8,053 nt of DNA, from positions 1-8,053 of the forward strand of contig JAJRWM010000180.1 of assembly GCA_024276815.1 (NCBI GenBank). The letters are read 5' to 3'. Made by a program: the position numbers and the translations under genes. This DNA comes from a bacterium (GTDB lineage Bacteria > JACRDZ01 > JAJRWM01). Of the stretch, positions 4,396-7,974 are shown one piece after another; positions within the stretch are counted from its first letter, which is position 1; every line of letters starts with the position of its first letter. The notes under the pieces are model-generated. The model was not told the origin of the DNA. It worked only from the letters and a program-made list of their open reading frames with translations, and ran no database searches.

Positions 4396-5901
4396 CTAAT
4401 TTGTTTTGGCTCTCCTTTTATAGAGGAAGAGAACATACCTTTGATTAAAGATATGCCGGTTAATTAAATAATAGTTGACGGCGAACTCTGGATTGACAAA
4501 AATCTCGTTTTCCACTTTGGTTTTCGGTTTCATTTGATAATAATCCCCGCTGATTAAAACGATATAGGTTGGCCGAACCCGGAAAAGATACCGGTCGACG
4601 GAACGCTGGTAGTAATTGCCGGGCAGCCTGGCGATTTCCCGGTCATTCAGGCCTAGAATATCGATAGTTGGTAATTCGGAATAATAGGGCAGCGCGCCGG
4701 CGTCCTGAACGGCGACCGTCTCCCCGGGGAGCGCGTTGCTTTTCAGCCACTTGCCCAGGCTGATATGAGCGCTTTTTAAACCCTTCGTATAGAACTCCAT
4801 CAGCTTGAATGATTCCCGGTAGGAATTGCCGATATTATAATTAGCCAGGACAATGAACAAAAGCAGGAAAAAGCTTCGCCACCATTTACGATTATTATGG
4901 GAAAAATGGCTGAGCGCACGACTGAGCCGGTCAGCGCCCACCAGGAAGAGGATGACGAAAAAGGGGAAAGCCGGGACAAAGAACCGCCCTTTAATGCCTA
5001 CCCAGGAACCGCCCGAAAACAGGATAAACAAAAGCCGGCTGATGATAATTAAAAAGAACAAGACGTGTGAAATCCGATTTTTCTTCTCCGTTAACGCCAG
5101 CATAATAAAAGGCGAACACCAGACCAGGCCAATATAGACATTGAGCTGTTTCAAAGTATCCCAGCCCTTGGGGAGCAGGTGAAACCCCATTTTCTTGGCG
5201 TAATAACTGTTGGGCCACCACTCGCCATAGTAACTGACGCGCCAGCCAAGATGTATCAGGACGACTGAAGCTGTAACCGCCAACCAGACCAGATCGGTTT
5301 TTCGGAGCCGCTTTTCTTTGATAGCCCGAAAAAACTTCAGCAGGGCGAAGATCGCGACCAAGGTCAGCCCGTCCGGCCTGGTTAAACAGGTTAGGGCCAG
5401 GGGAACCGCTGAATACGGGAAATCATTGCCCGACGCTTCTTCCCTGATGAAAAGCAGCGCTGCCGCCAGAACAAGCAGGGAGAAAAGCCCCGTTTCAAGA
5501 CCTTCGGCGAGATGGTACACGTAATACATGTTGGCCGAGGTTAAAGCTACCGCCAGGAGAGCTAAGGATTTATTGTGGCATAGCTTGTTAGTCAGAAGAT
5601 AAATCAATAGTAACGAGAACAAGCCGCAAAGGAAGCTGAATATCTTTAACGTGACGAAGACCTGGCCGCCTTGATAAAACAGGGCCAGTAAAAGCACCCA
5701 TAAAAAATTGGTATAACCCTCGACCCTTTCGCCGGGATTGAACACCAGCCCCTTGCCGTTGACGAGGTTTCTCGCGTAGCGCAGGCTGATATAGGTATCA
5801 TCGATAAGAAAGTCCCGGCATTGCAGGTAATTAACGACAAAAACAGCGAACAGAGCGGAAATTATCAGCAGAAAGAGGATGTTCTTTTTGGTGGAAGACA
5901 T
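4396..5901 (-). CDS. Polytopic GT-C-type glycosyltransferase (GT39/AftB-like)
   Basis: The 501-residue membrane protein has about ten or more hydrophobic segments (for example 8-25, 83-105, 137-152, 178-192, 205-222, 253-270, 278-297, 307-325, 343-356) and a soluble C-terminal part from about 365. The first extracytoplasmic loop carries IDDTYISLRYARNLVNGKG (33-51), with the Asp34-Asp35 pair typical of GT-C enzymes, then ERVEGYTNFLW (58-68). AEGLETGLF (132-140) and TRPDG (174-178) complete a pattern shared by many lipid-phosphate-sugar-dependent transferases, including the actinobacterial AftB and ZomB group. It probably transfers a sugar from a polyprenyl-phosphate donor outside the cytoplasmic membrane. 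Donor and acceptor are unknown. It starts 11 bases after the HTH gene with no good ribosome binding site (the gap reads TTTTTTCCCAC), so it is probably coupled to that gene. The fold is well supported and the substrate is not. Confidence 0.82.
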   Translation of the reverse strand: MSSTKKNILFLLIISALFAVFVVNYLQCRDFLIDDTYISLRYARNLVNGKGLVFNPGERVEGYTNFLWVLLLALFYQGGQVFVTLKIFSFLCGLFSLLLIYLLTNKLCHNKSLALLAVALTSANMYYVYHLAEGLETGLFSLLVLAAALLFIREEASGNDFPYSAVPLALTCLTRPDGLTLVAIFALLKFFRAIKEKRLRKTDLVWLAVTASVVLIHLGWRVSYYGEWWPNSYYAKKMGFHLLPKGWDTLKQLNVYIGLVWCSPFIMLALTEKKNRISHVLFFLIIISRLLFILFSGGSWVGIKGRFFVPAFPFFVILFLVGADRLSRALSHFSHNNRKWWRSFFLLLFIVLANYNIGNSYRESFKLMEFYTKGLKSAHISLGKWLKSNALPGETVAVQDAGALPYYSELPTIDILGLNDREIARLPGNYYQRSVDRYLFRVRPTYIVLISGDYYQMKPKTKVENEIFVNPEFAVNYYLINRHIFNQRYVLFLYKRRAKTN

Positions 5902-5912
5902 GTGGGAAAAAA

Positions 5913-6545
5913 CTATTCGGGATCGGAAAACAGACCACGGAGGTATTCGGAAAAATGCCTGAGCAAGCTTTTTTGTTTGCGTATGAGCTTGATATTCTCC
6001 GCCTGGTCTTTAATCTCTAGGGTCAGGTTGTTTATTCTGCTATCTTTGAGCGCCAGCAGCCGCTCCTTTTCCTGAAGGATGTACTGCAGTTCGTTGACCT
6101 GCATTTGCCCCTCGGTAATTTTAGTCTCAATTAAACGCCCCAGTTCCCGCCAGTTTTGCCGGAATTTTTCCCGATCAAAACTTTTTTGAGCTACGAGCTG
6201 TATCTCCTGGTTTTGCAAGGTCGCTATTTTACCAAAATCATCGTTCTCAGACTGTGGAACGGTGACTTCTCTCTTGATACTTTGACTTTTTGTTTTGCGA
6301 CCCGTTTTTATGGCCGGTTTTTTTTTCGCCAATTTACTTTTAGCAACAATCGGTTTGCCCCTTTTGAGATTTTTCACATCCTCTTTTCCCAGAAGGTATT
6401 CCTCGCCATAGCGGCCCTTCACCTTTTTAGCGGGCAACCGGCCGTTTTTTATTCTGCGGCGAATAGTCGAGATCGAGACCCCGGAAAGGGATGAAGCTTC
6501 GTGAATGCTGACAAAATCCGATTTGGAGTTATCCGAGCTAACCAT
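5913..6545 (-). CDS. HTH DNA-binding protein with basic linker and C-terminal coiled coil
   Basis: The 210-residue protein has an N-terminal MerR/excisionase-like winged HTH: VSIHEASSLSGVSISTIRRR (12-31) gives the two helices, and the following GRLPAKKVKGRYGEEYLLGKEDV (35-57) gives the wing and closing helix. A Lys/Arg-rich linker (about 61-93) follows, then a charged, Gln/Glu/Lys-rich helix (about 125-195) with heptad-like hydrophobics, read as a coiled coil for oligomerisation. No membrane segment or ligand-binding domain is visible. It likely binds DNA as a dimer or higher oligomer, as a local regulator or a structural DNA-binding protein. The start is supported by AGGAGA 7 bases upstream and by its own promoter. 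The gene is visibly more AT-rich and Lys-rich than its neighbours, which fits either its composition or acquisition from elsewhere. It shares an 11-base gap with the GT-C gene. I do not recognise a named family. Confidence 0.75.
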   Translation of the reverse strand: MVSSDNSKSDFVSIHEASSLSGVSISTIRRRIKNGRLPAKKVKGRYGEEYLLGKEDVKNLKRGKPIVAKSKLAKKKPAIKTGRKTKSQSIKREVTVPQSENDDFGKIATLQNQEIQLVAQKSFDREKFRQNWRELGRLIETKITEGQMQVNELQYILQEKERLLALKDSRINNLTLEIKDQAENIKLIRKQKSLLRHFSEYLRGLFSDPE

Positions 6546-6618: not shown

Positions 6619-7923
6619 TTAACCTAACTTTCTGATAATTTCCCCGCTCAGCAGTTCATCGTTCATTTTGGGCAGGATCTGGCGAATCAAGGCGGTTCCC
6701 TTTTTACAGGTCAGCGCCGAGGCGTGCCCGGTCAGGTATTCGGAAAACGAAAGGAGCGCGTTCTTCTGGTAATTCAGGGCGGAGACCGGCCTGGCTAAAG
6801 ACGGAGTAACCGCTTCCTGGAAGGAAGGCAGTTCGCCTGAATCGACCAGCTTACCAACGATTTCGTCCAGGCTGCGCACATCATCCAAAGAAAACTGTTC
6901 TTTATTCGGCGCATGGTCAGCTTCCTCACTGTAGCCTCCGGGATGAGTCCTTGAGCCGGCCGAAAACATGGAAACCCCGGAACGCATCATGGTATCCCTT
7001 AGTGGCGGGGCTTCCCTGGTTGTCAGGATTATCTCAGCTTCCGGAAAGACCAGCCTTAAAAGAGCGGCAAGGCGCTGGAATTCAAGGTCGCTGATGGGAG
7101 CCGGAGGTGTTTTCAGGGGCGCGTCTAACGCCGGTTTTAAGCGGGGCAAAGAGAAACTGGAAGGATAGAAGCCAAAACGTTCTTTTATTTCCCGGGCGTG
7201 GGCGACCAGCCCCAAAAAATCATAATGATAATTTCTCAGGCCCAGTAAAATGCCCAGGCCCACCTCGGTAAAACCGGCCTCAACCGCTTTAAGCGGAGCG
7301 TTAATACGATTCTCAAAATTGGCTTTTGCCCCGCTGGGATGCATGGTCTTGTAAGTCTGCGGATGGTAGGTTTCCTGGAAAAGAATATAAGTGCCGGCCC
7401 CCGCTTCTTTGAGGTGGGCGTATTCGTCCGCGCTTAAAGGAGCTACTTCGAGGTTCACCCGGGCGATACCCGGAGTTGACCGGACAGTTTTGATAACCTC
7501 GCTTAAATAATCTTTGCGGGAATCATGCGGGTTTTCCCCGCAAATCAGCAATACGATGCGGTGGCCGGTCCGGGCCAGGGCTTTCGCCTCTTTTCTTATT
7601 TCGGGCAAGGTCAGTTGGCGGCGAACCAGTTTTTTGTTATCGAACCTGAAGCCGCAATACAAACAGTTGTTTTTGCAGATATTCGTAAAATACAGCGGAG
7701 CGAAAAGGGCTACCCGCTGGCCAAAGTTTTTTTCTTTTATCTTGATCGCCTGTTCGATTAAAGAGTTTGTCTTGCCTTTCAGGAGAAGTTTCGCCGCTTG
7801 CCGAAGGTCCAGCCCCCCGCCGGCGCCGGCTTGAGCGGTTAATTCATCTATTTCAGGTGAAGTGGTAGCCTGAGCCTCTTCGAGAGCCAACTCGATTTGT
7901 GAATGAAAGAGAGTTAAATCCAT
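6619..7923 (-). CDS. Radical SAM tyrosine lyase of the ThiH/HydG family without the HydG auxiliary-cluster cysteines
   Basis: The 434-residue protein starts at the ATG 7923-7921. AGGA lies 7 bases upstream, and a promoter overlaps any longer reading. After a helical N-terminus comes APLYFTNICKNNCLYCGF (75-92), with Cys83, Cys87 and Cys90 binding the SAM cluster. Then come CGENP (128-132), VNLEVAPLSADEYAHLKEAG (156-175), FQETYH (182-187), MHPSGAKANF (194-203), SFSLPRLKPAL (256-266), TTREAPPLRD (301-310) and SAGSRTHPGGY (321-331). These motifs are shared with ThiH and HydG, which cleave tyrosine to p-cresol and dehydroglycine. The length lies between ThiH (about 375) and HydG (about 470). The C-terminal extension resembles HydG (PSF at 366-368, NALLSFSEYL at 388-397), but Gln369, Val372 and Gln386 stand where HydG has cluster cysteines. 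Canonical HydG function is therefore unlikely. A ThiH-like supply of dehydroglycine, or a third role, is possible. No hyd or thi gene is adjacent. Confidence 0.82.
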   Translation of the reverse strand: MDLTLFHSQIELALEEAQATTSPEIDELTAQAGAGGGLDLRQAAKLLLKGKTNSLIEQAIKIKEKNFGQRVALFAPLYFTNICKNNCLYCGFRFDNKKLVRRQLTLPEIRKEAKALARTGHRIVLLICGENPHDSRKDYLSEVIKTVRSTPGIARVNLEVAPLSADEYAHLKEAGAGTYILFQETYHPQTYKTMHPSGAKANFENRINAPLKAVEAGFTEVGLGILLGLRNYHYDFLGLVAHAREIKERFGFYPSSFSLPRLKPALDAPLKTPPAPISDLEFQRLAALLRLVFPEAEIILTTREAPPLRDTMMRSGVSMFSAGSRTHPGGYSEEADHAPNKEQFSLDDVRSLDEIVGKLVDSGELPSFQEAVTPSLARPVSALNYQKNALLSFSEYLTGHASALTCKKGTALIRQILPKMNDELLSGEIIRKLG

Positions 7924-7945: not shown

Positions 7946-7974
7946 ATTATAACACCCGCCCGGCTATTGGTCAA
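7946..7974 (-). promoter_or_regulatory. Near-consensus sigma-70 promoter for the tyrosine lyase gene
   Basis: On the minus strand there is TTGACC (7974-7969) as -35, a 17-base spacer, and a perfect TATAAT (7951-7946) as -10. Five of six -35 and six of six -10 positions match consensus. Transcription would start near 7939, giving a leader of about 16 bases, too short for a riboswitch. Strong basal expression is expected unless a repressor acts. Confidence 0.82.

Follow-up and report, generated by a model that had tools for sequence, protein, structure and literature searches.

The presence of HydG is commonly read as a sign of [FeFe]-hydrogenase maturation. The window analysed here, a stretch of 8,053 nucleotides which is one entire contig (C111) of the draft genome G000 (GenBank GCA_024276815.1, JAJRWM010000180.1), carries a gene for a HydG-like radical SAM tyrosine lyase that lacks the second Fe-S site of HydG, and it raises the question of what such an enzyme (referred to as the query) could do in a genome where no hydrogenase was detected. 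We consider it probable that the query, which is of HydG ancestry or close kin to HydG, acts as the ThiH (2-iminoacetate synthase) of G000.

The gene and its genome

The query gene and the features of its surroundings are listed in Table 1. The forward-strand reading of the same segment contains many stops. The promoter-like sequence found 22 bases ahead of the ATG is to be taken as a consensus match only (one observed, 1.7 expected in shuffles). In the 130 bases 5′ of the gene, beyond which the contig ends, the Rfam search gave no match, including no TPP riboswitch, and the folding of this segment was no better than that of shuffles. The 120 bases upstream of the gene are single-copy, so that the contig does not evidently break off in a repeat. 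The two downstream neighbours showed no apparent tie to tyrosine or thiamin chemistry.

Table 1. Features of the 8,053-nucleotide window
Feature	Position	Strand	Remarks
HydG-like radical SAM tyrosine lyase gene (query)	6619..7923	-	434 aa + stop; ATG at 7923, stop at 6619; ORF and profile searches
Sigma-70-like promoter TTGACC-17-TATAAT	7946..7974	-	11/12 consensus, extended -10
SAM-cluster motif C-x3-C-x2-C, codons Cys83-Cys90	7654..7677	-	
Codon Ser255	7159..7161	-	invariant-His position of HydG (T. italicus His265)
Auxiliary-cluster loop remnant, codons 369-386	6766..6819	-	C-x2-C replaced by Q-E-A-V, third Cys absent, shortened
HydG-type C-terminal helical domain, codons 364-434	6622..6834	-	retained
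Helix-turn-helix protein gene	5913-6545	-	downstream of query, same strand
Mannosyltransferase-like membrane protein gene	4396-5901	-	downstream of query, same strand

The draft of G000 comprises 2.39 Mb in 246 contigs and is 91% complete, that is, about 9% may be missing; three of the compared genomes belong to the same phylum. Contamination was rejected as the origin of the contig, since its GC content (0.50) and tetranucleotide profile (match of 0.86–0.92 to other G000 contigs vs 0.59–0.79 to other genomes) agree with the remaining G000 contigs.

Profile searches of this 91% complete draft, where a preliminary description of the locus had advised looking for a complete hydG with hydE/hydF and for thiG/thiS/thiF, detected no [FeFe]-hydrogenase domain, no match to HydE or HydF above the cut-off, neither a second ThiH/HydG nor a canonical ThiH, and no ThiO. 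G000 has ThiC and a thiF-thiS-thiG-thiE cluster from which thiH is absent, and the query gene lies outside this operon. As no other source of dehydroglycine was found in the genome, the query is the one candidate detected that could supply ThiG. The preliminary description had suggested that the product might be released for another purpose. No positive evidence for this was found, and given thiC and thiF-thiS-thiG-thiE in a genome where the query alone was detected as a source of dehydroglycine, the obvious use is in thiamin synthesis. Elsewhere in G000 (L178, contig C165, 249–3350, minus strand) two radical SAM proteins resembling, by eye, those of the futalosine menaquinone pathway (MqnC/MqnE type) are encoded with an MqnA-like gene between them.

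Kept and lost residues

The query was aligned with 129 HydG-type proteins (97 without near-copies) and 16 canonical ThiH sequences. The intact SAM cluster and core reported earlier were borne out: Cys83, Cys87 and Cys90 are present, the query retains every position that is conserved across HydG and ThiH alike (46/46), and the residues of the tyrosine pocket of TcThiH (E158, T299, R300, R306, S318 and S321; PMC9046217) all have counterparts in the alignment (Glu159, Thr302, Arg303, Arg309, Ser321 and Ser324). Glu159 was considered as a ThiH signature and rejected, because Glu is also found there in many hydrogenase-linked HydGs. Similarly, the stretch LEVAPLS, which had been taken as ThiH-like, proved not to be ThiH-specific, as many hydrogenase-linked HydGs read INVEIAPL.

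At positions conserved only in HydG, 12 of 33 residues are kept and 21 are changed, including the Cys and His of the auxiliary site (the middle Cys is outside this count, since its position is shifted in a few HydGs, which have FCTAGYRC). Loss of all three auxiliary cysteines, as originally claimed, was confirmed: Gln369 and Val372 align exactly with the C-x2-C of HydG, and the column of the third Cys falls at or beside Gln386, which MAFFT separates from Tyr385 by a gap of one residue. The segment between these positions is indeed shortened, by about 9–10 residues compared with HydG, and Cys406, the sole cysteine past Cys128, equals no conserved HydG cysteine. The earlier observation slightly understated the change, as the His of the GPHTIS motif of HydG is also replaced, by Ser255. 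The replaced His, which in HydG ligates the extra ("dangler") iron, corresponds to His265 of T. italicus HydG, a numbering derived from the offset between the alignment and the structure comparison.

The Cys of column 369, the third Cys and the GPHT His are 100% conserved among the 97 non-redundant HydGs, and every aligned HydG-type relative keeps the three auxiliary cysteines except the Cys-less ones discussed below; among the approximately 130 HydG-type relatives aligned, the combined loss of Cys and His was seen elsewhere only in two congeneric genomes (G076 and G346). Considering this conservation together with the complete retention of the shared positions, the loss of the auxiliary site is, as judged from the alignment, more than chance. 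Since the cysteines and the iron-binding His are both gone, the loss spans the whole second metal site, and assembly of the CO/CN synthon is not expected. It is extremely unlikely that an auxiliary cluster is held by other ligands and that the query assists a hydrogenase absent from the draft assembly. HydG C-terminal motifs are variable (PMC9431212) and the draft may lack about 9% of the genome, but there is just the one Cys past Cys128, the His has disappeared as well, and hydrogenase, HydE and HydF would all need to be missing.

The absence of a hydrogenase and of other maturases from the detected gene set, together with the lost auxiliary site, would also fit a decayed former hydrogenase maturase having no current role. 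We regard this as very unlikely, because the full ORF, its own promoter-like site and the 46 retained catalytic and structural positions are unlike a relic.

Family models and predicted fold

Pfam radical SAM and BATS domains were found in the query. It scored 318.4 bits with the NCBIfam HydG model TIGR03955 (cut-off 312.15), which is uninformative since HydG-type copies in thi operons pass too (365–457 bits), and remained below the cut-off of the ThiH model TIGR02351 (297.8 vs 380 bits). The AlphaFold model has a pLDDT of 92.9, and the sole stretch below 50, residues 373–378, lies in the degraded cysteine loop. The model superimposes end to end on HydG 4WCX (426 residues, Z 53.7, 1.4 Å) and through the barrel on ThiH 7PD1 (361 residues, Z 49.8). 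Thus, the C-terminal domain is predicted to fold like that of HydG without its cluster, an outcome that the HydG-rich input alignment favours, and the proposal of a HydG-like scaffold lacking the CO/CN site agrees with the match to 4WCX and the absent cysteines.

Compared with HydG (4WCX and 4RTB; TIGR03955), the query has the same three domains and tyrosine pocket, with 38–40% identity in structural alignments of 418–426 residues, but it lacks C-x2-C-x22-C and the extra-iron His, and its genome has no detected hydrogenase, HydE or HydF. With ThiH (7PD1; TIGR02351) it shares the tyrosine pocket, including the equivalent of E158, a single cluster and a genome containing thiC/F/S/G/E, whereas it is only about 31% identical, falls outside the ThiH clade, bears a HydG-like C-terminal domain and is not encoded in the thi operon.

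HydG-type genes in thiamin operons

Many HydG-type genes whose neighbourhood was read adjoin hydE, hydF or hydrogenase genes. Others were found beside thiS/thiG, namely in G001 (where only thiS precedes the contig end), G003, G094, G361, G018, G165, G141, L107 (a bacterial bin, apparently the same contig as that of G361), L110 (a deltaproteobacterial MAG) and Moorella mulderi (L142). TPP riboswitches precede the operons of G094 and G018; no [FeFe]-hydrogenase was found in G001, G003 and G094, and no canonical ThiH in these three genomes and G018. In the thiamin-linked HydGs none of the three Cys is lost and the His is present too; these proteins also contain a His-x-Asn motif (IVHLNAAP and similar). 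The auxiliary motif is complete in the thiamin-adjacent loci L062, L063, L067, L071, L107, L110, L142, L198, L204 and L210. Since the members tested (365–457 bits) pass the HydG model, they would be named hydrogenase maturases. Each of the three same-phylum relatives of G000 has, by sequence, a protein of the thiamin-linked set, and no relative exceeded about 49% core identity to the query in 386 genomes or in the best 80 loci of the contig search.

These genes provide a precedent for a thiamin role. They also show that proteins built like HydG need not go with a hydrogenase. This weakens the original suggestion that the query represents a third type, since thiamin operons are already known here to encode HydG-type proteins in which the site is complete. 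The proteins of Moorella mulderi (L142), G094 (L067) and G003 (L062) share with the query the architecture, the thiamin context and the lack of a canonical ThiH in the genomes checked, but they keep the three Cys, the His and the His-x-Asn motif, which the query lacks.

The same combined loss of auxiliary Cys and His is found in L020 (G076) and L203 (G346, same genus). Unlike the query, these proteins nest among the thiamin-linked HydGs, have an aconitase-like neighbour and come from ThiO genomes. The Cys-less genes of L069 (8604–9887) and L203 (6612–7883), from two genomes of one genus that has ThiO, each adjoin an aconitase-like gene, and no thi genes are nearby. L020 was rejected as the only ThiH of its genome, as ThiO is present in that genus. 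Consequently, loss of the site is not always tied to being the sole ThiH.

These Cys-less proteins, lying away from thi genes in genomes with ThiO, are consistent with another end product of the query, for instance p-cresol or free cyanide, or else dehydroglycine that would serve an unknown cofactor. HydG variants without the C-terminal cluster still cleave tyrosine, and this cleavage would yield p-cresol anyway. Such a product nevertheless seems quite unlikely, as no adjoining gene hints at such a pathway and the query most simply fills the thiamin gap of G000.

Phylogenetic position

Canonical ThiH formed one clade (100/100) with the query outside it, in accordance with the expectation of the preliminary description. 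In the first tree the query branched as the sister group of the whole HydG clade (99/95); it did so more weakly in the second, built without histidine columns and with fewer ThiH sequences (87/95). When the ThiH outgroup was omitted, it dropped into an unresolved bush. Its terminal branch is long (0.9–1.3), and its grouping with the thiamin-linked HydGs was not rejected (p-AU 0.16). Because L020 and L203 nest within the thiamin-linked HydGs, their Cys loss is, on these trees, separate from that of the query.

The earlier suggestion that the query may branch between ThiH and HydG is thus backed by the placement in both trees and undercut by the long branch, the instability without the outgroup and the p-AU value. 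In such a lineage the auxiliary cluster would never have been present, the C-terminal domain having come first and the cluster having been added later in true HydG; the predicted C-terminal fold shared with HydG and the commonest ThiH residue at several HydG-invariant positions (F67, R122, R148, A154 and S256) are compatible with it. We think this unlikely, as the short, low-confidence loop resembles decay, and as loss does occur, which the position of the G076/G346 proteins within a group of Cys-bearing HydGs shows. There is a similarly small chance that the query is a living ThiH–HydG intermediate, a thiamin lyase that predates or roots the gain of the CO/CN cluster; if this were true, hydrogenase maturation would have been co-opted from the vitamin B1 pathway. 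Since the loop is both short and modelled with low confidence, and independent loss is seen in G076/G346, we favour loss of the auxiliary site over its never having been gained.

With its defining sites absent, the query is not a HydG, and being outside the clade and below the cut-off, it is not a canonical ThiH. While belonging to neither family, it most likely works like ThiH.

Proposed function

A thiamin role, with the HydG tail as a cluster-free relic, is the simplest reading of the residue pattern and the gene content. In the proposed mechanism, the cluster at Cys83/87/90 would cleave SAM, and tyrosine, held by Glu159, Thr302, Arg303, Arg309, Ser321 and Ser324, would be split to p-cresol and dehydroglycine. 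The latter would exit via the bottom of the barrel and pass to ThiG for the thiamin thiazole, and the C-terminal domain of HydG would persist as a fold from which the second Fe-S site is gone. What the analysis shows is the residue pattern, the predicted fold and the gene content of G000; this activity, the ThiG partner and a change by loss rather than by never having gained the site are what we infer. Against the ThiH role stand the position of the gene outside the thi operon, with no TPP riboswitch detected over the 130 bases that precede it on the contig, and the draft state of G000 (91% complete), in which a genuine ThiH, or Hyd genes, may have been missed.

In a genome without a detected hydrogenase, the thiamin slot would thus be filled by a HydG-like enzyme lacking the CO/CN site. 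As current models give the name HydG to thiamin-operon genes, hydrogenase potential deduced from hydG alone can mislead. No literature on a HydG-type ThiH was found among open-licence papers, which makes this weak evidence of novelty. The HydG-type set offers natural comparisons for the contribution of the auxiliary cluster and for the divergence of HydG and ThiH.

Other HydG-type loci

In G002 (L066, contig C116, 6313–8989) a HydG-type gene adjoins a gene for a HydE-like radical SAM protein whose N terminus is formed by a HypC domain (PF01455, 53 bits), and a HypC–HydE-like protein, seen by motif only, is also encoded beside a HydG-type gene in G075 (L027, contig C44, 100–1401). HydF and [FeFe]-hydrogenase were not detected in G002, which is 78% complete; its HydG and HypC–HydE may build a CO/CN-bearing iron unit for a different target, perhaps [NiFe]-hydrogenase. 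Finally, the HydG-type domain of L172 (G043, contig C28; HydG frame at 7748) lies within a 1113-aa ORF, a possible fusion, with HydE, HydF and hydrogenase genes nearby.
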